64,000 nt of DNA from Sulfuracidifex tepidarius (GTDB lineage Archaea > Thermoproteota > Thermoprotei_A > Sulfolobales > Sulfolobaceae). Location of the stretch: positions 1,998,875-2,062,874 of the forward strand of contig NZ_AP018929.1 in NCBI RefSeq assembly GCF_008326425.1, read 5' to 3'. The stretch's first letter is position 1, and the number at the start of each line of letters is the position of its first letter. The translations under genes and the position numbers were made by a program. This document shows, piece by piece, positions 42,230-59,588 of this stretch. A model generated the notes under the pieces. The model was not told the origin of the DNA, searched no databases, and worked only from the letters and a program-made list of their open reading frames with translations.

Positions 42230-42592
42230 TTAAAAAACTAAGATTGACTTGGACTCGGCACTCTTGAAGGCGAACTCTGAGACACCGCTCACCTTGACCT
42301 TAGGTATTAGGTCTTTTTCCTGTATTCCCTTGACTCTCATCCCGAACTCGCAGGCTGCCAACTCCACGCTGTCCTCACCTAGTTCCATTAAATTGTCAAC
42401 GTAGTAAGAGAGGGGCTTGGCGTTGTTCAGTAGTACTTTCTCGTTTTCTCTACTAACTCCCTTGAGAGCATCCATCGTGAAGAACATGTACACTTCACTT
42501 CCGCCTGACACGTAACCTATAGCAGTGATTATTCCCATGTATAGCTTCTCGGGATCTCCTGACACCATGAAGAATGAAAACTTTTCACCCAT
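42230..42592 (-). CDS. DsrE-family sulfur relay protein
   Basis: The 120-residue protein has the DsrE fold pattern (FSFFMVSGDPEKLYMGI, SEVYMFFTMDALKGV) and a single Cys in ELAACEFGM (about residue 83), the usual persulfide-carrying position. It is the last gene of the TusA-YeeE-membrane protein operon and overlaps the preceding gene by 8 nt. It is inferred to take sulfane sulfur from TusA or the membrane protein. Confidence 0.8.
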   Translation of the reverse strand: MGEKFSFFMVSGDPEKLYMGIITAIGYVSGGSEVYMFFTMDALKGVSRENEKVLLNNAKPLSYYVDNLMELGEDSVELAACEFGMRVKGIQEKDLIPKVKVSGVSEFAFKSAESKSILVF

Positions 42593-43052
42593 TTGTTCTC
42601 ACCTTTACATATTTCACTAAAGCATACCAAAACCACATGAGGCACGCGATTACGACTCCGTAACCGATCAGCCTCAAATCCACGGGTGCTATCCCGCGGA
42701 AGAGATAGAAAAACGTGTCTAATTCCACCGCTATGACCACGGGGGAGACTACGTCGACACCTCCGAAAGACCACGTACCTCCGTCCAGTCCTTGGACTAT
42801 CTTTACCATGTTGTACCAGAACACTGAGAGGCCTGCGAAGACTAGAAAGTAACATATCCAGAGTGTAGCAGTCAAGTAACCTTCCATCTGAGTGGGAACT
42901 ACGTATACTGCGTAATTCCCGTTAGAGAGAGCAAGCTTGTTAGACCCTACTAGGTACACCTCGCTGAACCTGTACCACCCTACAGCGAACATGGATAGAA
43001 CGAGAGGGGCGAGCAATCTCCTAACGTAAACCGGGTTTATCTTGACAGACAT
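42585..43052 (-). CDS. Membrane protein of the YeeE operon
   Basis: The 155-residue protein has four hydrophobic segments (about 12-28, 58-80, 99-117, 127-148). It has no Cys likely to carry sulfur apart from one or two in membrane segments. It lies 3 nt downstream of YeeE and overlaps DsrE, so it is part of the same unit. I do not recognise a family; it may be a transporter subunit. Confidence 0.6.
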   Translation of the reverse strand: MSVKINPVYVRRLLAPLVLSMFAVGWYRFSEVYLVGSNKLALSNGNYAVYVVPTQMEGYLTATLWICYFLVFAGLSVFWYNMVKIVQGLDGGTWSFGGVDVVSPVVIAVELDTFFYLFRGIAPVDLRLIGYGVVIACLMWFWYALVKYVKVRTNG

Positions 43053-43055
43053 TTC

Positions 43056-44303
43056 TCATAACCTCTCCTGAACTTTCACGGCTAAGTATACTCCTCCTAA
43101 CATTCCGAAGATGAATATGATCCCGTCGTAGCCTATCTGGGCGAAGTTGGTCCACATTAATCCCACGTTGCAACCTAACGCCATCCTCACTCCTATTCCC
43201 ACAAGTATTCCCCCGATGAAGCCTATTGCAAGTCTCTTCTTCTCCCTCGGAATCCTTATCTTGAAGTCGCCGCTTAAGTAAGAAGAGAAGAAAGCCCCTA
43301 CGCAGAGCATAACTACCATCAGGGTACTCGTGTCCACTATGGGTAGAGAATCATTGAACCAAGGAGTGGTAAGGAAGAGGTGTTGTCCGAAAATGAATAA
43401 GATGTACTCGAAGAACCTTCCTCCGTCAGAGGATGTAATCACCAAGTAGTTGAAAGTGTACCCAGCCCCTATGATGAAGACCAGGAGCATATCTAGAGCT
43501 AGGATCACCGTGGTTAAGTTAGTCCCATATGGTTTCTTGAGCAGTAAAAGGTCCTTTGCTTCCTTCTTCAAGTCCATCCTCTTTATCGATTCAGGGGAAG
43601 GGATTGCGGACTTCCCGAACGCTTTGAACTTGGGAGATGACGCCATCATTCCCTTACTTACGTTGCCCATGGACATAGCGTTCCATTTCTTCTTGGTTCT
43701 AGCCTGCAGGTATATCCCAAGACCGATTAAGGGAACAGAGTAGAACACTGTTGTGACCAAAACTCCAGCGTCAGAGACGTCATGAAAGATCAGGTACGGA
43801 AGGTACTCTACGTAACCTCCAGAGGTAGTTGAGAGTATGCCCTTCTCCATAGTGTAAAGCTGGAAGGGCCATATCCCCACTGCGAATATGTAAGTCCCTA
43901 TCATCATTCCGAAGAGCTCTATCCAGTTCTGAACGTATCCTGAGGCCGCTCTGTATAACATGGAGAGATTACATCCGCCTGCTAGGGCAGCACCGAAGCC
44001 GAAAATTATTGACCCTACTAAGATGTACCACCCTCCGAAGTAATTGAAGTAATACTGATCGCTAGCAGGTATTACTCCCAGTCCCACCAGGAGGCCGGCT
44101 CCCAGAGCCGAAAGCCCAAAGAGGAGGAGAAGTGCTCCGAACCTCTCGTAACTCCTCACGGTGAACACAGAGGTCATCGCGTTAACGAAACAGTAGTTTC
44201 CCCTCTGTGCTGACCAACCTAAAATGAAGCCTGAAAGAGCGAAGACACCAAAAACAATGGGCCAGCCGTAAGAAAAAACCGGCTGTAGCACCATAGGTGG
44301 CAA
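43056..44303 (-). CDS. YeeE/YedE-family sulfur transporter
   Basis: The 415-residue protein has about ten membrane segments and the two Cys-containing core repeats typical of YeeE (TsuA) thiosulfate transporters, around ALAGGCNLSMLYRAASG (about residue 105) and MALGCNVGLMWTNFAQIG (about 377). These Cys residues handle thiosulfate or sulfane sulfur in characterised family members. It follows a TusA gene and precedes a DsrE gene, the usual partners. It probably imports thiosulfate or a related sulfur compound. Confidence 0.88.
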   Translation of the reverse strand: MPPMVLQPVFSYGWPIVFGVFALSGFILGWSAQRGNYCFVNAMTSVFTVRSYERFGALLLLFGLSALGAGLLVGLGVIPASDQYYFNYFGGWYILVGSIIFGFGAALAGGCNLSMLYRAASGYVQNWIELFGMMIGTYIFAVGIWPFQLYTMEKGILSTTSGGYVEYLPYLIFHDVSDAGVLVTTVFYSVPLIGLGIYLQARTKKKWNAMSMGNVSKGMMASSPKFKAFGKSAIPSPESIKRMDLKKEAKDLLLLKKPYGTNLTTVILALDMLLVFIIGAGYTFNYLVITSSDGGRFFEYILFIFGQHLFLTTPWFNDSLPIVDTSTLMVVMLCVGAFFSSYLSGDFKIRIPREKKRLAIGFIGGILVGIGVRMALGCNVGLMWTNFAQIGYDGIIFIFGMLGGVYLAVKVQERL

Positions 44304-44305
44304 AC

Positions 44306-44557
44306 TTAACTCACCTTTTGAATCCTAAACCTGTAGACTTCACCATCTTTTATGATAGTAAAGGGGTAGCCGTTTGATTTAGCTAGAGACGGAAGGGTTA
44401 CGTCTACAGCAGGTTGATGATCAGTTAGGACTTCCAGTATCTGTCCTTGCTTCATCTTCTTCAACTTCTTCCCAGCTGTCATCTCGGGAATTGGACATGA
44501 CTCTCCTCTTACATCTACTACCTCGTCCGGTTTCCTGGTTTTGAGGTCTTCACTCAT
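44306..44557 (-). CDS. tusA: TusA-family sulfur carrier
   Basis: The 83-residue protein has the TusA signature [13 protein letters not shown], with the sulfur-carrying Cys in C-P-x-P (about residue 21). It passes persulfide to other proteins. It is the first gene of the operon with YeeE. ATG 44557 is preferred; GTG 44569, in frame, would match a leaderless start from the TATA-like motif near 44597 and is the alternative. Confidence 0.88.
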
Positions 44558-44845
44558 TTTTATTTGCACCTAAACTAAACAACTTTAATTAAGTTATTTA
44601 AGTATTAAGTCTTTTTAAATTCTTTGTTAAGCTTTTCTCATCAAAAGTAAACACTCAAGTAAGGAATGAGGTCAAGGAAGGACAGAAAGAGAAAAAATGA
44701 AAAGCATGCTATGTTCACGGTTTTCATCGGATTGATATCAGTATTTAAAGAACTATATAGAGGAATTTTTGGAATTAAAGTGTTCAAAAGAGGAGAAATA
44801 GAGCTAACGTTTTGTTTTCTCGTGCTGTTACAGAAAAAGGGGGTT

Positions 44846-45293: not shown

Positions 45294-45539
45294 TTAAGGT
45301 AGACCTCTAGGTCTAGCCTTAGGTAGCTCTATTACGTATCTCCTCAAGTCTCCCTCATCGCTGTAGACCAGGTCGATCCCGAACTTCTTTATCACCATGA
45401 CCACGTCTTGTTCTTGCGAAGACCCTCTCTCTACGACGACTTCCAAGACGTCATTGTCCTTCATTTTCTTTACTTTAGAATAAACTATTAGCTGGGGAAC
45501 CGAACAGCAAAGCCCTACTAAGTTGACTTCGCTCCTCAA
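45294..45539 (-). CDS. Degenerate TusA-like protein
   Basis: The 81-residue protein aligns with TusA: VNLVGLCCSVPQLIVYSKVK has Cys at the carrier position, but the usual C-P-x-P reads C-S-V-P with an extra Cys before it. It overlaps the 311-residue TusA-domain gene by 4 nt. It may take sulfur in a dedicated relay with that protein. Confidence 0.65.
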   Translation of the reverse strand: MRSEVNLVGLCCSVPQLIVYSKVKKMKDNDVLEVVVERGSSQEQDVVMVIKKFGIDLVYSDEGDLRRYVIELPKARPRGLP

Positions 45540-46471
45540 CTCTCAGACCTCATGTAAAACACGTGGATTATCCCGACGCTCCCAGTTACCATATTTATTG
45601 CGTCTTCGTCAAACAGCTTGGTATCTCCGTAGTCGAGCCTTGCAGCTACCATCTTCTTGTCCTTAACTACCGCAGTCAACAACCATCCCCTGCCTTCGGG
45701 AGAAGCCACTATCATAGCATCTCCTTCAACTTCAAGGAGAGTCGGAGAGAAAGTCTCCACTCTTTTCTCCTCGACTACCTTATCGTAATGCAAGTAAAGT
45801 TTCCCTATGGCCATCTCATCCCTTATTACGTCCCTTACCTCATAGAAGCTCAGCGGTGTTTCGTTTCTCCCGCACATGAACGTGAACGTGGCGTAATCAC
45901 CGTTATCCTCTATCTCGTACCTGCAATTGAAACTCCTAGCTACCTCAGGGAGGGTGTACCTGATTGCGGGAGGGTTATCGACCAGTACCTCTATGACCTC
46001 AAAAGGTTTGGCTGAAAGTATGGCCTTCTTCGTCTCTATTTCAGGAACGGGACAAGTAACCCCCCTCAAGTCCAACCTCTTAGCCTTAGTCGGGTTAAAT
46101 ATGGATTTCCCCTTGTTATTTTCCTTCCTCACTATGCTGACGTTGTTTAGAAAAGACGAGTATTTCTCCAAGTTCCTCGCTATCCTCCATTCCATCGGTT
46201 TGAACAAGACAGAAGAGATCGAGGCACACTCCACCTTAACCTCCGCCTCCTCACTCAAGTCAATTATCACCATGAACTTCCCGTTCTCCTCTGTGATCCT
46301 CACCTGATTTCCCTTCACTGAGGCGAAGACGTTCATTTCTACGTTCATCCACCTTACCTTCCCTGAATACCCGTAGTCCATCTTCTTCAGGTCCTTCAAC
46401 CCGTATACCATGGCGCTCTTCTTCAGGTCCTTGAACACGTCTATATGCTTAGGGTTAAGTGTAGCCTTCAC
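45536..46471 (-). CDS. Multidomain protein with a central TusA domain
   Basis: The 311-residue protein has an unrecognised N-terminal domain (about 1-125), a canonical TusA domain in the middle (about 130-200, LDLRGVTCPVPEIETKKAIL with the C-P-x-P motif) and an unrecognised C-terminal alpha/beta domain (about 205-311). TusA normally stands alone or fuses to rhodanese or DsrE domains, so this arrangement is unusual. It is divergent from the Cys-rich/DsrE/DoxD gene run and coupled to a TusA-like gene. I infer a sulfur relay or sensing role. Confidence 0.7.
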   Translation of the reverse strand: MKATLNPKHIDVFKDLKKSAMVYGLKDLKKMDYGYSGKVRWMNVEMNVFASVKGNQVRITEENGKFMVIIDLSEEAEVKVECASISSVLFKPMEWRIARNLEKYSSFLNNVSIVRKENNKGKSIFNPTKAKRLDLRGVTCPVPEIETKKAILSAKPFEVIEVLVDNPPAIRYTLPEVARSFNCRYEIEDNGDYATFTFMCGRNETPLSFYEVRDVIRDEMAIGKLYLHYDKVVEEKRVETFSPTLLEVEGDAMIVASPEGRGWLLTAVVKDKKMVAARLDYGDTKLFDEDAINMVTGSVGIIHVFYMRSES

Positions 46472-46640: not shown

Positions 46641-46976
46641 ATGGATTCTTGTGGTTGCCAGACCGAGAGGAAGTTCGCTTCAGATTTCCTAGCTAGGCAG
46701 GTGTTCAGACTGGGCAAGAGGAAAGGTAAGGAAATGGGAAGCTTTGAGGTCAACGGTCGTAAATTCTCTATCTACGAAACTAAGGAGGGTTACAAGTACC
46801 TTTGCGACCAGTGCCCTCTCCTCATCATTACGTTGGAAGCGGTCATGGAGGAGGTCAACAAGGGAAACAAGGACGAGAGTCAGGTGATGGAGAGGATTTC
46901 CTCAATAAAGGGACTCACAGTGAACCAAATGATAAGGGAAGTGGTTGTGAAGGTGATGGAATGTCTAAGAGAATAG
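46641..46976 (+). CDS. Small Cys-rich protein with CGC and CDQC motifs
   Basis: The 111-residue soluble helical protein begins MDSCGCQTERKF and has YLCDQCPLL (about residue 55). Two Cys pairs suggest a metal site or a persulfide/disulfide function. It overlaps the DsrE-like gene by 16 nt, which itself has a CDQC motif. ATG 46641 is preferred to the in-frame TTG at 46623. I do not recognise a family. Confidence 0.6.
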   Translation: MDSCGCQTERKFASDFLARQVFRLGKRKGKEMGSFEVNGRKFSIYETKEGYKYLCDQCPLLIITLEAVMEEVNKGNKDESQVMERISSIKGLTVNQMIREVVVKVMECLRE

Positions 46977-47296
46977 CTTACTTGGTTGAATCCCCCCTGG
47001 GAAACTACGTTCTAGGACAGATGATAGTCCCCCAGCTCGAGGAGGGAAGGCATGTAGCTACGGTAAAGGGCATGTTTTTCCTGGATAACAACGTTTATTT
47101 GTTGATGAAAGGTAATCCTCTAGCTGATAGGCTAGCTTCCTTGAGCAGGTCACAGGGGATCTATCTTCAGGCATGCGATCAATGCGTCTTCATGAGAAAC
47201 TTAGCGGACAAGTTGATAGGTGAGGCAAAGATAGGTTGTTTTCCTGACTTCTATAATAAGTTATTGGACGAAGTGGACATGATAATCACGGTTTAA
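46961..47296 (+). CDS. DsrE-like protein with CDQC motif
   Basis: The 111-residue protein has a DsrE/DsrF-like alpha/beta pattern with VATVKGMFFLDNNVYLLMKG, YLQACDQCVFMRN (about residue 62) and the typical C-terminal strand VDMIITV. The Cys pair is where DsrE-like proteins carry sulfur. The ATG at 46961 lies within the end of the previous gene, so translation is coupled. It is probably a partner of the TusA proteins across the divergent promoter. Confidence 0.7.
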   Translation: MSKRIAYLVESPLGNYVLGQMIVPQLEEGRHVATVKGMFFLDNNVYLLMKGNPLADRLASLSRSQGIYLQACDQCVFMRNLADKLIGEAKIGCFPDFYNKLLDEVDMIITV

Positions 47297-47387
47297 TTTT
47301 TTTAGTCGTAACCTTTTTTTAAGAAAAAATGAAATAAGAGTTTAAAAACTGACTAAGCTTTTATACGTTTCTTAATTTAGTTAACTT

Positions 47388-48581
47388 ATGAACTATAAGT
47401 TAATTCTGCTAGCTGGGTTCGTGGTTATACTTGCTGTAGGGTTCGGCTCGGCTTACTTGATGCTAAACGTACCCGGGGTTAGCTCATCGCACGGAGTTTC
47501 TTCCACTCCATCATCTCCGACTTCACCGTCATCTTCATCATCGTCTCTCTACTTCCTTACACTTACTCAGAAGGGAATTGCAATGGTGATAAATCCGTTC
47601 TCTGCGTCTAGTTTCCTGGGTTTTCAACACGTAGTTAACATATCGCTGAACGTCCCAGACCAAGTGTTTTACTGGGAGGAAGTACCTTACGGTGACACGA
47701 TATCGCTCAACCAGTACGTGTTCGTTCCCCTAAATAACGGAACGGTGGAAGTTTTCAATTCCACTAACATGAAGGTTGTAGACACCCTCTCCGTGGGAGA
47801 TTCTATAGGCTTCATAGGTGTAGCGTACTCTCCACACATGAACAGAGTAGCTATAGCTGATGGACCTTCCGGAGTAGTTGAGGTCGTAAACGCTCATACC
47901 CTTCAAGTCGAGTGGAAGGATACTTTCGCCTCAAACGGAAAGACTATGTATCCTTGTGACGTGAGATGGACTCCTGATGGAAGTTACTTGTTAGTTCCAA
48001 TGAAACTCAACGACTCCATAGTCCTCATCAACTCCGGTAACGGAAACGTAAACACGGTGAAGGTCACATCCCCTAAGTCTGAACCTTACATGCTGTCGCC
48101 TAACGTTCAGGGAACGATGGTTGCTGTAGAGTTCTCGGGGAACAACAGCGTTGGGTTTTACTCACTTCCCGACTTATCTTACATGGGTATGGTGAGGATG
48201 CCAAGTACTGTAGTAGCTCAGAGAGGAGTTTTCACGCCTAACGGGTCATATTACCTTGAGGCGTCCGCTGACTCAAACGAGGTTGCCGTGATATCCACTT
48301 CCTCGTTTTCAGTAGTGAATACCATCAACTTACCTTCTACTTCAACTCCTGGACTGTCGGGAATAGCTATCGCTCCTGGCGGACAATATGCGTTCACTGT
48401 GATACACGGCAACGTTAATACCGGAGGGATGATAGTGTTGATCTCCCTTTCATCTATGAGCGTAGCATATCAAGTACCTCTGAGTACAGCTCCGTCCTTT
48501 GTGGTTCCGATGACAGGATCAGCGGAGAACTACTTGGTCAACAACGTCCTCTTACCTCCGGTGACTGGGCTTCACTGCTAG
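47388..48581 (+). CDS. Membrane-anchored YncE-like beta-propeller
   Basis: The 397-residue protein has an N-terminal membrane segment (about 6-26), a Ser/Pro-rich linker (about 32-53) and a seven-bladed propeller of the YVTN/YncE style ([26 protein letters not shown]). The propeller is outside. It starts about 90 nt after the DsrE-like gene and is followed at 10 nt by a membrane protein and DoxD. I infer a role in extracellular sulfur handling; the ligand is unknown. Confidence 0.75.
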
Positions 48582-48591
48582 GTGAACTAAG

Positions 48592-49512
48592 GTGAGACCT
48601 TTAAACCCCCTTTTTTATTTTTTCCTTTTCTTGGAAGCAACAGTTCTATTTCCTGTGATAATAAACGGATTCAGGGTGGTAAACGTATGGTACTGTCCGA
48701 TGTCTGACACTGGACAGATAACGTTCATCACCCCGTTTCTGGAGTACGTCTTCTCCTTCCTGTTGATCTCTGTCACAGTGGGCGTGGTTCTGTTCAGGAA
48801 GAAGGGGAACAGGTTCATCCTGGTGAGAGGCCCTATGAGAATAAAGAACGTGATAAGGGCAGTTTTGAAGGACAAGGTCGGGTTCGCTTTGGTCTCAACT
48901 TATTTTGTTCTGTATTACATCTCTTACCTTATTACCTCAGGAGTCCTTCTAGTGCCGGGGCTGAACGTGGACAAGTATTTCGTTCAACTTACGTTGACTA
49001 CCTACGAAGGTGCAGGTCTTTCAGTGTTAAAGCTCGGAGGACTTTACCTGGTAGCTGAGCCTTCAATAATGTTGATGGGTTTAGCTGTCGATCTGTTGCT
49101 GACGGTTTCCCTGATCCTTTCCTACTACGTGATTTCCTTAATTTATGTTTCTGCAAACCTTTACTCGTTCCCCGTTCCAAAGTCTTTCAGGCTTTCCGCG
49201 ACCTCAACTGCAGGGGGATTCTTGACCGCCTCAGTTCCTTCAATAGGCACTATAGCTGGCATATGTTGTTTAACGCCCACGGCAATGAACTCTTTGCTCT
49301 ACATGGCGTCAGGCGCATTGCCCCTCACCAAGGGAGTAGCCTGGAAGTACGGTACGTTCGTCCTAGGCGCTTGGACTGGAGGGATAATGCAGGCCCTAGC
49401 TTTAGGCTCCACTGTCCTAGCTGGAGCCCTTATTTTAGGGATCTCTGCTTACTACGTTGTGAGGATATCGAGGAGACTGGCTGATAGATATGAGGTGATG
49501 ATAAGTGGTTGA
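48592..49512 (+). CDS. Polytopic membrane protein with paired Cys
   Basis: The 306-residue protein has about seven membrane segments. A conserved-looking motif [16 protein letters not shown] (about residue 223) places two adjacent Cys in or near a membrane helix. GTG start. It overlaps the DoxD gene by 8 nt. I cannot name the family; it may move sulfur or electrons. Confidence 0.6.
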
Positions 49513-50041
49513 GGCTAGACAGGGGTCTTATTGGGACGTAATGTTCAGGCTAATTGCGGGGTCTATATGGATAGTCGCAGGAGTCCTAGACAAGCTTCTA
49601 AACCCTGGGTTCCTTAACCCTGACTCGACCAAGTATGTGGGTTTCACAATACAGTACTTCGCTGAGGGATCTCCGATTAAGGGATTCCTTTATTCAGTAG
49701 CGTTTCCTAATCCTGTTCTAACTGGTGAGCTGGTGATAATAGGGGAGATATCCTTCGGAGTTCTTTTCATGAGCGGAATGCTGACTAAACTTGCGTCGAC
49801 TTGTGCTCTTTACACTAACTTGATATATTTCCTTTCTGCTGCGTGGACGGGAGCTACTGAATATGGTATAAATCTGCTCTTAATGGGAGTAGATTTATAC
49901 TTCCTGGTAAACGGAGCTAAACGTCTTTCCATTGATTCTATGGCTCCCGAATCCCCGTTGTGGTCGACGAAGCTTTGGTTCACGGCAGGATCTGTCTTGT
50001 ACCTACTTGTCGTAATATTCCTTTATTTGAAAGGTCTTTAA
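49505..50041 (+). CDS. doxD: DoxD-like subunit of thiosulfate:quinone oxidoreductase
   Basis: The 178-residue membrane protein has about four hydrophobic segments and the DoxD/DoxX pattern ([20 protein letters not shown] near the N-terminus, [13 protein letters not shown] about residue 80). In Acidianus, DoxD with DoxA forms thiosulfate:quinone oxidoreductase. No DoxA is obvious here, but the propeller upstream may replace it. It ends the rightward sulfur operon and starts with GTG, overlapping the previous gene. Confidence 0.8.
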
Positions 50042-50188: not shown

Positions 50189-51823
50189 TTAGAGCGAAGG
50201 TAGAGGAGTCCCAGACTCTATACCAAACGAACTTAGAGGTAACGCCATTATCCATCCATAGTTGTTCACTAGGTAAATTGTACCTCCAGCTATAGCTGGG
50301 TTAGATATGCCGAAGAATCCTCCGAGAACATACCTACCCAAGAGATGTCCGTCGCTGGCATTCATTACGTATAGAGAGTTTGCACCTAGTTGCAGAAGAT
50401 AACCGTCGAAATATATAGGGGATCCTCTAGGAGCTCCTGCGAACTTCGGTGCTAAAGGTATTCCGGGCAAGACGGTCTCCCATAACACCTTCCCGTTAGA
50501 TGCGTTTATGGCGAACTCCTCTCCCGTTGAAGGATCTGGTAAGTAAGCTACACCGTTCACCACAAGCGGTACTCCTCCTTTAAATGCAGCAGGAACACCT
50601 CCGTACGAGAGGTTGTCTTCCCATAACAGTTTACCGTCGGTTGCGTTCACACCGTATGCCACGAAAGACACGAACTTACCAGTTTGATTAGCAACTGTAT
50701 CAGAGATTACTATACCTTGTTCTTGGTCTACAGCTACCGGCACATCTCCTACTCCAGTGTTCGAGGATACATATGGTGGATTGATAGATGATTCCCAGAC
50801 TAGATTGCCGTTAATTCCGTTTACAGCTACTATCTTTCCATAAGGGTACTGTAACTCGCTGAACCCAGCCATGAATATAGGAGTACCATTAGGTAACACG
50901 TAATAGTTGACACTACTCATGCTTGCGAACAACCCAGGCAAATGGGTCTGCCACATCACTTTCCCCGTAGTAGCGTTAGCTCCTGTGAAGAACCCAGCTC
51001 CATCTACATACGCTACAATTCCGTTATAGACTGCGGGAGAAGGCATTGCCTCTCCATCGGTGAAGTGCATCCACATTAATCTCCCGTTAGTGGCGTTAAA
51101 AGCGTAGATCGCGCCGTATGCCATTCCTCTTACGATTAAACTATCGTTCCCCGCAATGTAATGATTGAAGTTGGCGAAGTTGAAGCCGACATCGCCCACG
51201 GAGACATAGACCATCCCTTCGCTCACAACGGGGTCTCCCATCGCATAGCTGGCCAGCCCAGTTGCGTACCATATTACGTTCCCCGTAATTGGGTTGATGG
51301 CGAAGACTGATCCGGGGCCTGAATCTGCTTCCACGAAAAGCATGTTATCTGCAAGGGTAGCTCCCAGAGGTTCTCCCACAAATTGGCTTAATGCAGTTTG
51401 AGCGCTTCTGACTCCCTTGACTTGTGCTGCAGGTATGTGCTGAATTGAAACATTTAGGGGTAAGGGATTGCCTCCCGCAAGTTGAATATAAGGTTCAGTG
51501 AAATTCACGAAGTAGAACAGCGGATCTGATGTGTTCACTAACGCTTCGTGCTCTTGATTTCCGTTTATCACATTCCAAGAGTTAGGCAAGCTAAGGTTGA
51601 ATGGATAGGAATTCAAAGGACAGTATACCACCTTAACGATGTAGGGGAAATAGCATCCATCTAGTTCTGAGTAATACGTAACATTCTGAAAAAATCTATG
51701 GAGATGTGGAAATTGTGGTGTTTCAGCCTTGGTATTATGATTGCTCATATTGAAAACGACCAAAGTAGAAGCTATAAAAAACAATAATATTCCAACCGCA
51801 ATATATTTGTTTTTTGGATTCAT
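50189..51823 (-). CDS. Membrane-anchored PQQ-type beta-propeller protein (paralogue)
   Basis: The 544-residue protein has an N-terminal membrane helix (about 8-26) and propeller blades with NPITGNVIW, NATNGRLMW, NATTGKVMW and NATDGKLLW. The motif F/LTDGEAMPSPAVYNGIV parallels the protein at 134-1690, so the two are paralogues with a shared insertion. It is transcribed toward the sulfur operon. Quinoprotein-like function is possible but cannot be shown. Confidence 0.8.
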   Translation of the reverse strand: MNPKNKYIAVGILLFFIASTLVVFNMSNHNTKAETPQFPHLHRFFQNVTYYSELDGCYFPYIVKVVYCPLNSYPFNLSLPNSWNVINGNQEHEALVNTSDPLFYFVNFTEPYIQLAGGNPLPLNVSIQHIPAAQVKGVRSAQTALSQFVGEPLGATLADNMLFVEADSGPGSVFAINPITGNVIWYATGLASYAMGDPVVSEGMVYVSVGDVGFNFANFNHYIAGNDSLIVRGMAYGAIYAFNATNGRLMWMHFTDGEAMPSPAVYNGIVAYVDGAGFFTGANATTGKVMWQTHLPGLFASMSSVNYYVLPNGTPIFMAGFSELQYPYGKIVAVNGINGNLVWESSINPPYVSSNTGVGDVPVAVDQEQGIVISDTVANQTGKFVSFVAYGVNATDGKLLWEDNLSYGGVPAAFKGGVPLVVNGVAYLPDPSTGEEFAINASNGKVLWETVLPGIPLAPKFAGAPRGSPIYFDGYLLQLGANSLYVMNASDGHLLGRYVLGGFFGISNPAIAGGTIYLVNNYGWIMALPLSSFGIESGTPLPSL

Positions 51824-56625: not shown

Positions 56626-57573
56626 TCACTTCATCAGAAAAGGAGAGTACTCCTCCCCTTCGAATGAACGGGCTAACCTCCTAGCTTGGGTGAACACTTC
56701 GTCCTCCCCAACGTTACTAAGCCCTCTATAAACTTCTTTTAAGGATATGCCTTCCTCACCTTTCTCCCTAGCCTTACCTATGAGGAACCTATCCACTAAA
56801 GGACGGAACTCCTCCATCAAGTCGAAGACTAGTGACTCCCTTCCAGACCTAATAGAGTGGAGGAAACCTACATATGGATTGAGGCCTGCTGAAATCACTG
56901 CAGACCATACCCTCCTCCTGAGCATGGCATAGCCCACGTTTAACGCCACGTTAAACGGATCCTCGGACTTCCTCTTCCTGCCGGGAAACTTCAGGGGAAT
57001 AAGGGACTTAACCGAAGACCAGTATATTCTGGCGCCCTCGGCTTCCTTCCCCATGACTTGTTTCACAGTTGAACAGGAAATTACTTCTTCCTCAAGTTTC
57101 TGTAGTTTCTCAGTGGATAGGTCGAGGGAGTACTTCCTCTCGTAATACCTGAGCACCACCCTTTGGTTCCTCAACTTCCCTCTGACGAAGACGGAGGCAT
57201 ACTTTACCCGAGAACTCTTCCACGCCTTAAGTTGAGATAGCCAAACCTTCATGGAACCGCCGTATCTTGCGGGTATCACCTTAGCTACGGGCTCTCCTTT
57301 CCTGAAGAAGACTAGGTCTATCCCGTACTCGTTAGCTAGTGCAATTACCTCAGAAGAAACCGAACCAGTGACGAGAAAAACGATGGAAGATAGCTCAACT
57401 GGAGAGACGCTCCACATATCCTTCCCTTTTAAGGAGCAAACTATCATGTTGTCTTTAACGTGTAAGAAAGCTCCCCAATCTTTTACGAAGGCTATAGTGC
57501 CTCCTCCCATAATTATGTCTTGATGAAGGGGATTATAAATTGGTAATACCATTTCATTGAGACCTTCAAACAT
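56626..57573 (-). CDS. cas1: CRISPR integrase Cas1
   Basis: The 315-residue protein has the Cas1 active-site residues: Glu177 in MGKEAEGARIYW, His239 in VGFLHSIRSG and Asp251 in FDLMEEFRP. It should integrate spacers with Cas2. It is in the same direction as the array and 76 nt beyond its trailer end, so the array transcript could run into it. AT-rich sequence with TATA-like motifs in the gap may give it its own promoter. No other cas gene is on this side. Confidence 0.93.
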   Translation of the reverse strand: MFEGLNEMVLPIYNPLHQDIIMGGGTIAFVKDWGAFLHVKDNMIVCSLKGKDMWSVSPVELSSIVFLVTGSVSSEVIALANEYGIDLVFFRKGEPVAKVIPARYGGSMKVWLSQLKAWKSSRVKYASVFVRGKLRNQRVVLRYYERKYSLDLSTEKLQKLEEEVISCSTVKQVMGKEAEGARIYWSSVKSLIPLKFPGRKRKSEDPFNVALNVGYAMLRRRVWSAVISAGLNPYVGFLHSIRSGRESLVFDLMEEFRPLVDRFLIGKAREKGEEGISLKEVYRGLSNVGEDEVFTQARRLARSFEGEEYSPFLMK

Positions 57574-57649
57574 GATAATCTTTTATGATTTTTATTATAA
57601 TTTTAAATTAAACTTAATTAGGTAAAAATTAACTAGAAATTGGTACTAA

Positions 57650-59588
57650 TTTTCAATCCCGTTATGGGTTCAACTGAATTCCGTGTTCAGGATGATACGC
57701 TATCAATTTATCATCTTTCAATCCCGTTATGGGTTCAACACGCCGTCAGATTCGTGATAAAGAGAATAGAGAAGTGGACTTTCAATCCCGTTATGGGTTC
57801 AACATGTATATGGGTTCAATGGAAAAAAAATTAGGGCTGTCACTTTCAATCCCGTTATGGGTTCAACCTACTTCAACAAGAAGTTGATATAAAAACTATA
57901 TGCTTTCAATCCCGTTATGGGTTCAACTATGCAAAAACTTTGATGAATGTTATTTATTCCACAGCTTTCAATCCCGTTATGGGTTCAACATTTAATACGG
58001 AAATGAAAAAGATATCTCTTGATGTTATACTTTCAATCCCGTTATGGGTTCAACCTGAACAACCTGAATAAAGCGACAACATACTTCTATTATTTCTTTC
58101 AATCCCGTTATGGGTTCAACACCGGTAGGCATGCCCTGAAAATAGTGCCTGATATCGTTTACCACTTTCAATCCCGTTATGGGTTCAACATTATGTAAAA
58201 CAATTATCTACCGATACATACATTAAAATCTTTCAATCCCGTTATGGGTTCAACTTATATGAAGGCTATAAATTCCTGAAAAAATACATAAAGACTTTCA
58301 ATCCCGTTATGGGTTCAACAAAGGATATACAATTGTACGAATAGGTGATTGGGTAATCCTTTCAATCCCGTTATGGGTTCAACTTCAGCATGAAAAAAAG
58401 ACGACTTAAATTATTATCATACCTTTCAATCCCGTTATGGGTTCAACAAGAAATAGATGAACTGAGTATCTACAACCACTTCTTAACTTTCAATCCCGTT
58501 ATGGGTTCAACTCTCTGTCTTCCTGCTCTTCCCGATATTTGCTTATACTCTTTCAATCCCGTTATGGGTTCAACTAGCTTGACCGTAGACAGCACCTAAG
58601 AGGAGACCTACTTTCAATCCCGTTATGGGTTCAACTCAGTTTTCCCGTTAGAGCTGATGAACTACAACAACAAATCTTTCAATCCCGTTATGGGTTCAAC
58701 CGAGACTGAAATAAGCTATATTGCTGACGACGTTGCCTTTCAATCCCGTTATGGGTTCAACCCTAGGCGTGAGCGTTCCGCTCAACAGAGTCGCAATAAA
58801 CTTTCAATCCCGTTATGGGTTCAACTAGACATGTCATATACTTTTCATGTGTCACACTGTCACTTTCAATCCCGTTATGGGTTCAACTGAATACTCTTAT
58901 GTCTTTGGATGGGACAGGGAAACTGCTTTCAATCCCGTTATGGGTTCAACCGAAAGGACGGCATCAATGTGGTGCCGTCCGCTATGACCGCTTTCAATCC
59001 CGTTATGGGTTCAACTTATTGATTTCGTGACCTCTGTAGTTTTTATGTCATTTATCTTTCAATCCCGTTATGGGTTCAACAAACCCTCCCTCAAACTTGA
59101 GGGGACTTTTCATATCACCCCCTTTCAATCCCGTTATGGGTTCAACTACGTCCATGGTTATATATAATCATCAAATACTAATACTTTCAATCCCGTTATG
59201 GGTTCAACTCGTCTCATATAAGGAATTGGTAGGGAAAATTTTACAGGGCTTTCAATCCCGTTATGGGTTCAACGATTCCTCTAGACAGGAACGAGCAAGG
59301 GTATTGTGTTAGCTTTCAATCCCGTTATGGGTTCAACCGCTATTATCGCAGTATTGCCATTGCCATTACAGATACGCTTTCAATCCCGTTATGGGTTCAA
59401 CAGTAGTAGGAGTAGGAGTAGGAGGAGTAGTAGGAGGAGTCTTTCAATCCCGTTATGGGTTCAACGAATTTTTTCACCTCCGCGGGGGAAATCCCGCAAT
59501 TCTTTCAATCCCGTTATGGGTTCAACGTATCTGAGAAGCCACACTCCTCTATGGCAAGTTCTCCTTTCAATCCCGTTATGGGTTCAAC
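57650..59588 (-). CRISPR. CRISPR array, 31 repeats and 30 spacers
   Basis: A 25-nt repeat occurs 31 times with spacers of 35-44 nt. On the plus strand it starts CTTTCAATCCC and ends GGGTTCAAC, so the crRNA-sense strand is minus and its 5' handle is ATTGAAAG, as in crenarchaeal type I and III systems. Thirty repeats look identical; the repeat at 57650 differs at its first plus-strand base, which marks the trailer end. The newest spacer is therefore at 59527-59563. Several spacers are odd and are listed as findings. No interference genes lie in the window. Confidence 0.97.

Follow-up and report, generated by a model that had tools for sequence, protein, structure and literature searches.

A conserved Sulfolobaceae gene cluster links a surface propeller, a cysteine-pair membrane protein and a DoxA-independent DoxD to a YeeE-TusA importer and suggests a sulfur-capture and relay system

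We analysed a window of 64,000 nucleotides from the genome of Sulfuracidifex tepidarius (NZ_AP018929.1, positions 1,998,875 to 2,062,874 of the forward strand; the genome is a single contig of 2,560,765 bases), in which five plus-strand genes, spanning 46641 (or 46623) to 50041, lie head to head with a group of minus-strand genes related to sulfur transfer. Gene 1 (46641..46976, alternative start 46623, 111-117 residues), taken from the list of open reading frames (ORFs), encodes a small protein with no Pfam match above cut-off and nothing of weight in NCBIfam, and gene 2 (46952..47296, 110-114 residues) a SaoD/DsrE-like protein (NCBIfam NF040732, 5e-35, below cut-off). They are followed by gene 3, for a predicted membrane-anchored surface propeller (47388..48581, 397 residues), gene 4, for a multi-transmembrane (TM) protein with a vicinal cysteine pair (48592..49512, 306 residues), and gene 5, for a DoxD-family protein (49505..50041, 178 residues; PF04173, 149 bits, 1.1e-43). 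On the minus strand, a long TusA-domain protein faces gene 1 (45536..46471, TusA domain at residues 131-196; PF01206, 1.6e-15), next to a short divergent TusA carrying the motif CCSVP (45294..45539; PF01206, 3.7e-9). Further along lie a TusA with a CPIP motif (44306..44569; PF01206, 1.8e-20), the adjoining YeeE/TsuA-family (Sulf_transp) importer (43056..44303; PF04143, 3e-50), a small multi-TM protein, memb155, delineated from the ORF list and the neighbourhoods of relatives (42585..43052), and a DsrE-family protein (42230..42592; PF02635/PF13686). A preliminary description of this DNA, made from its letters alone, had reported five same-strand genes facing two TusA-domain genes and including a surface propeller, a cysteine-paired membrane protein and DoxD, and this layout is borne out by the coordinates, the N-terminal anchor, the CC pair and the PF04173 match. 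It had also read the five genes as one operon and the propeller as a possible substitute for DoxA in a new thiosulfate:quinone oxidoreductase (TQO) or sulfur-uptake machine.

The gene-neighbourhood search that the preliminary description had called for shows that the cluster is strongly conserved. Among 197 genomes of the order, gene 4 is present in 23, all of one family, the Sulfolobaceae (the window's own and 22 others), and a profile search across 398 genomes of the phylum returned a single short, marginal match outside this family (E 5e-4, 46 columns). The propeller, gene 4 and DoxD stand in a row on one strand in 22/22 loci of relatives, or 23/23 with the window's own, and we refer to these three genes as the core. 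The canonical TusA, YeeE, the small membrane protein and DsrE are found near the core in all or nearly all loci, the misses being contig ends. As a control, seven window genes flanking the cluster were followed in the same way, and each occurs near it in 0-2 of the 22 relatives' loci. Because the core is kept in every relative and the flanking genes in two at most, the cluster is not a product of chance.

Genes 3, 4 and 5 are closely packed, with an overlap between genes 4 and 5. Where genes 2 and 3 adjoin, they are separated by a gap of 71-108 bp, and comparison of the upstream regions of the 22 relatives revealed a conserved TATA-like element before gene 3 (window 47325..47385, plus strand, limits approximate), present also in two genomes that lack genes 1 and 2 beside the core. 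A genome-wide search found no intact SaoD-like gene anywhere in these two genomes. In two further genomes genes 1 and 2 lie on the strand opposite to gene 3, and at locus L043 gene 1 sits ~2 kb from gene 2. Since the gap holds a conserved TATA-like element and genes 1 and 2 are absent or flipped in some genomes, the 'five-gene operon' is probably better seen as two units, a gene 1-gene 2 pair and the gene 3-gene 4-gene 5 core; what stands of the single operon is that the genes, the core above all, are kept together.

The CDQC motif said to be common to genes 1 and 2 turned out to be a local coincidence. In gene 1 the CGC motif and the last cysteine are retained in 21/21 sequences, and the first cysteine of CDQC in 2/21, so that the full motif exists in two sequences only; we consequently rejected it as a relay motif common to both proteins. 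In gene 2, CDQC is invariant (21/21), as is the cysteine of GCFPDFY. Gene 2 scores 119.9 bits against a SaoD cut-off of 169, which none of 31 genomes passes; the window protein has no Pfam match, and two relatives pass the Pfam DsrE model (PF02635). Additional SaoD-like copies lie outside the cluster in the source genome (220059-220379) and in the genomes G078 and G090.

The structure model of gene 3 (mean predicted local distance difference test, pLDDT, 79) comprises an N-terminal membrane helix (TM anchor, residues 3-26), a low-confidence Ser/Thr-rich linker, a confident propeller of the YVTN/WD type and a disordered tail at residues 391-397 (pLDDT<50). Its closest fold match is 1l0q, an archaeal surface-layer YVTN propeller (E 1.2e-16); Pfam and NCBIfam give a weak WD/YVTN-like signal, only partial and weak propeller or TM matches were found outside the family, and no match to tetrathionate hydrolase (TetH) appeared among PDB sequences. 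Two cysteines are conserved, both in 23/23 propellers: C190, within YPCD, and the terminal C397, which closes the motif P[VI][TS]GLHC at the exact C-terminus of all 23 proteins. H340 and H396 are the sole invariant histidines. A tail modelled as disordered that is nonetheless invariant, and that closes with a reactive residue, fits the expectation for a carrier or an active-site arm. An ordinary explanation is that the two cysteines form a structural disulfide of a surface protein living in hot acid, the propeller acting as a sulfur-surface adhesin or scaffold. The presence of exactly two invariant cysteines in a predicted extracellular protein and the match to a surface-layer propeller agree with it; however, the invariance of the whole terminal motif, its exact position and the conservation of His396 in a disordered segment exceed the needs of a clip, and we regard this explanation as improbable.

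Gene 4 carries the vicinal pair C225-C226 in the motif GICCLTPT, which is invariant in relatives, and a further cysteine (WYCP) that is not conserved. None of the 23 members matches Pfam, the window protein has no match in NCBIfam, and comparison with PDB sequences, PDB folds, YeeE and DoxD gave nothing convincing, the fold search resting on a weak model. On these comparisons gene 4 would represent a membrane-protein family that is new, is marked by an invariant cysteine pair and is confined to one archaeal family. A relationship to MerF, suggested by CCLTP in gene 4 and CCFTP in MerF, was rejected as likeness at the level of the motif only (hhalign probability 27%, P 7e-4), and we treat it as convergence or a lead. 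This same CCxTP alignment, together with the SaoD profile match of gene 2 (a family presumably named after an organometal system), would be explained if the cluster were a system for handling soft metals (Hg, As, Cu) that employs relatives of sulfur carriers. We consider such a system highly improbable: both SaoD models stay under cut-off, the MerF likeness is a short motif of low probability, and neither a metal reductase nor a lyase or pump was seen among the cluster genes, TusA, DsrE and YeeE being present instead.

The source genome carries three DoxD genes: the cluster DoxD, a second copy at 501354 and an ordinary doxDA pair at 2523101-2524057. The DoxD of this pair passes the NCBIfam cut-off for TQO-DoxD with 305.6 bits, whereas the cluster DoxD fails it (31.8 vs 300 bits). 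In a maximum-likelihood tree, 24 cluster-type DoxDs stand apart from 33 DoxA-linked DoxDs with a support of 100/100. DoxA (PF07680) adjoins none of 23 cluster DoxDs and sits beside other doxDs, including four DoxA-linked ones at which BLAST had missed it and the PF07680 search detected it. Most genomes with a cluster DoxD also carry an ordinary doxDA; in two near-complete genomes, G032 and G146, the cluster DoxD is the sole DoxD and the genome holds no PF07680 match. The cluster DoxD is thus a distinct, DoxA-independent clade, and the reported absence of DoxA holds at the locus, not across the genome. That DoxA might lie beside another doxD, with these genes not conserved together, had been named beforehand as the outcome that would speak against the early reading; DoxA does adjoin another doxD, but the genes are conserved together.

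The two groups also differ in residues. DoxA-linked DoxDs hold a single cysteine (Cys129, in GSTC-x-DEWQI) in 33/33 sequences, compared with 0/24 in the cluster DoxDs, in which the segment is entirely gone; His63, of FLPH, is likewise present in 33/33 and replaced in cluster DoxDs, mostly by Gln. Cluster DoxDs in addition bear an extra C-terminal hydrophobic helix. These data bear on the proposal that DoxD and the propeller, in place of DoxA, form a new TQO-like enzyme that turns thiosulfate into tetrathionate while reducing quinone. The match of gene 5 to the DoxD family and the existence of genomes with a cluster DoxD and without DoxA are in keeping with it, and the two invariant cysteines of the propeller and the CC pair of gene 4, one or both supplying the catalytic cysteine, could stand in for the lost one. 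Nevertheless, the loss of the invariant Cys and His speaks against DoxD carrying out TQO chemistry itself and against a swap of DoxA only, the score lies far under the cut-off, most such genomes keep ordinary doxDA, and TQO has been described as cytoplasmically oriented (PMC4175335), while the propeller is predicted to lie outside. A TQO-like enzyme is therefore quite unlikely, and the cluster DoxD does not appear to be a TQO with a swapped subunit, which leaves little of the idea that the propeller replaces DoxA.

DoxD2/DoxA2 is listed as an unexplained pair of the DoxDA type in a review of the Sulfolobales (PMC8551704). In our tree, the DoxA-linked DoxDs include a long-branched group that is DoxD2-like, the sub-group that corresponds to DoxD2 being one we infer, and the DoxA-less cluster clade appears to differ from this pair. 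The second DoxD copy of the source genome (501354-502362; locus L005, 8268-9351) is 84% identical and an intact protein of 178 residues; it adjoins a gene 4 copy that lacks the N-terminal third, with no propeller there. Near the second DoxD copy, at 4348-5620 of L005, lies a repeat protein of the YVTN type that seems to be broken across two frames.

On the minus strand, the importer contains the Sulf_transp domain, four invariant cysteines and an adjoining TusA, features of the YeeE/TsuA-TusA family; it scores 61-71 bits against curated TsuA cut-offs of 400-645 and is a family member, not a named orthologue. Cluster-type YeeE (166-190 bits) occurs in exactly 23/23 genomes with the core and in 0/8 members of the family without it, a co-occurrence with a chance of 1/C(31,8)=1.3e-7, kinship being ignored. 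A second, weaker YeeE paralogue is unlinked to the cluster in the source genome (346708-347769) and in relatives, with only a fragment in G078, which we take to be S. tokodaii. A sulfur-induced YeeE has been reported as absent from S. tokodaii (PMC11323534), and by this distribution it fits the unlinked paralogue better than the cluster YeeE. The genome G042, probably S. acidocaldarius, appears to lack the core and the importer genes; strain MW001 of that species is reported to have benefited little from SOR, TQO and SQR combined (PMC11323534).

A chain of cysteines runs through the proteins of the cluster. Invariant or near-invariant cysteines number two in the propeller, the pair in gene 4, one in the small membrane protein (C67, invariant and within a TM), four in YeeE, one in TusA (CPIP, 23/23), two in the long TusA (including C140, 23/23), one in the short TusA, one in DsrE (21/22), three in the SaoD-like protein and three in gene 1. 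The short TusA is found in 11/22 relatives; CCSVP replaces the usual CPxP, and its second cysteine is invariant. Every cluster protein except DoxD thus keeps at least one such residue, few other cysteines being conserved, and the pattern, YeeE and TusA included, fits a covalent hand-over of sulfur. Alternatively, the core may be a thiol:quinone redox or maturation module for cysteines of the envelope or of extracellular proteins, with a role like that of DsbB or VKOR, while YeeE and TusA alone move sulfur. Such a module would be in keeping with a membrane protein of the DoxD/DoxX type whose neighbours are a vicinal CC protein and a protein outside the cell that has two invariant cysteines, and with the partial second copy of gene 4 and DoxD that exists without a propeller. 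The core is, however, strictly linked to a sulfur importer and no match to a DsbB/VKOR-type family was found; we judge it unlikely.

Taken together, these results lead us to propose, tentatively and with confidence just short of even, that the cluster serves the Sulfolobaceae as a system that captures sulfur outside the cytoplasm and relays it to YeeE, TusA and DsrE, its substrate, complex formation, direction and quinone coupling being what we infer by analogy. YeeE has been demonstrated to act with a TusA partner in thiosulfate uptake by E. coli and Spirochaeta (PMC11073785), the YeeE-like SoxT imports sulfur for which the periplasmic cysteine carrier SoxYZ is the proposed source (PMC11582611), and TusA and DsrE3A of M. 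cuprina bear thiosulfonate in the cytoplasm (PMC4175335). By analogy with these carriers, the role of carrier outside the cell would fall to the propeller and the membrane step to gene 4 with DoxD. There the propeller would bind reduced sulfur in soluble form (thiosulfate, polythionate or polysulfide), and C397, possibly aided by C190 and the two invariant histidines, would take up sulfane sulfur or thiosulfonate. Gene 4 with DoxD may then accept sulfur from the propeller or reset its thiol/disulfide state, DoxD possibly handing electrons to quinone; YeeE would carry the sulfur unit across the membrane, and TusA, the DsrE-type proteins and the SaoD-like gene 2 would convey it to cytoplasmic oxidation (Hdr) or assimilation. 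The narrower version of this scheme, a new uptake machine in which the cysteine arm of the propeller loads sulfur outside and passes it via gene 4 and the DoxA-free DoxD to YeeE and TusA, is possible but doubtful.

Several points weigh against this capture-and-relay reading. C190 and C397 could instead form a structural disulfide, or a Cys/His metal site; the gene 4 model has low confidence near the CC pair (pLDDT<50); and we found no biochemical, localisation, expression or complex-structure result for the cluster in the literature. The transcript data for the sulfur-induced YeeE (PMC11323534) were rejected as support, its distribution being that of the other paralogue. What remains of the proposed sulfur machine is a conserved cluster that unites a surface protein with a DoxA-free DoxD and plausibly serves uptake or relay, and not a TQO in which a new subunit stands in for DoxA.

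The route by which sulfur reaches the cytoplasm of Sulfolobales and the function of the extra DoxD paralogues are listed as open questions (PMC8551704), and the uptake machine, if real, would answer part of the first. The cluster is conserved and family-restricted and looks undescribed. We single out the third, DoxA-independent DoxD clade, the new CC membrane family and the surface propeller with its invariant terminal cysteine; C397, C190 and C225/C226 are each open to a single-residue test. Were the cluster DoxD annotated as TQO, counts of TQO would be inflated in at least 23 genomes. Elsewhere in the window, at 56626-57834, there is a candidate Cas1 ORF (315 residues, minus strand) and next to it one that translates into repeats of 'FNPVMGST', as expected of a CRISPR repeat read through.

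Among known systems, the MerT/MerF mercury transporters share no homology with gene 4 beyond the CC motif, as judged with the MerF profile, and gene 2 is a relative of the SaoD/SAO (NF040732) and ELSE (NF040913) families with a CxxC, but below both curated cut-offs. A tetrathionate hydrolase-like PQQ propeller (PDB 6l8a, E 3e-67) is encoded next to gene 5 (50189-51823, minus strand); part of this gene lies beside the cluster in one same-genus relative only, and it thus stands outside the conserved unit. Tetrathionate hydrolase is, like gene 3, a surface beta-propeller of sulfur-oxidising acidophiles, but gene 3 is YVTN/WD-like, and the TetH-like gene is its neighbour. With the DoxDA TQO of the Acidianus ambivalens type, the cluster has in common a DoxD-family membrane subunit, a sulfur gene context and the same organisms; it differs in lacking DoxA, in its separate clade, in the lost Cys and His, in the extra TM and in having the propeller and CC protein as partners.

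The genome of locus L040 we take to be that of M. cuprina. Gene distances there, with the cluster dsrE ~4 kb from doxA, agree with those of the M. cuprina 'sulfur island', for which the accessible part of PMC4175335 gives Mcup_1706 (DsrE5), a sulfate-transporter-domain gene and the TQO genes Mcup_1712/1713. By position, the cluster DsrE belongs to the DsrE5 group of Mcup_1706; the propeller, the CC protein, the second DoxD and genes 1 and 2 are not described in that part of the source. The YeeE-YeeD (TsuA-TsuB) system (PMC11073785) likewise combines YeeE, its cysteines invariant in the cluster, with an adjoining TusA (CPxP), while the cluster YeeE scores under the TsuA cut-offs and sits with memb155, DsrE, the long TusA and the propeller core. 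The SoxYZ-SoxT1A-TusA system of Hyphomicrobium denitrificans (PMC11582611) lacks the additional CC protein and DoxD, and the beta-propeller model of gene 3 and its fold matches are unrelated to SoxY and SoxZ. The terminal cysteine on a low-confidence tail, present in 23/23 propellers, would resemble the SoxYZ cysteine arm at most in the way it works, and delivery to the importer is a conjecture; both systems nonetheless place a candidate extracytoplasmic cysteine carrier, proposed to feed a YeeE-family importer, alongside cytoplasmic TusA and DsrE.

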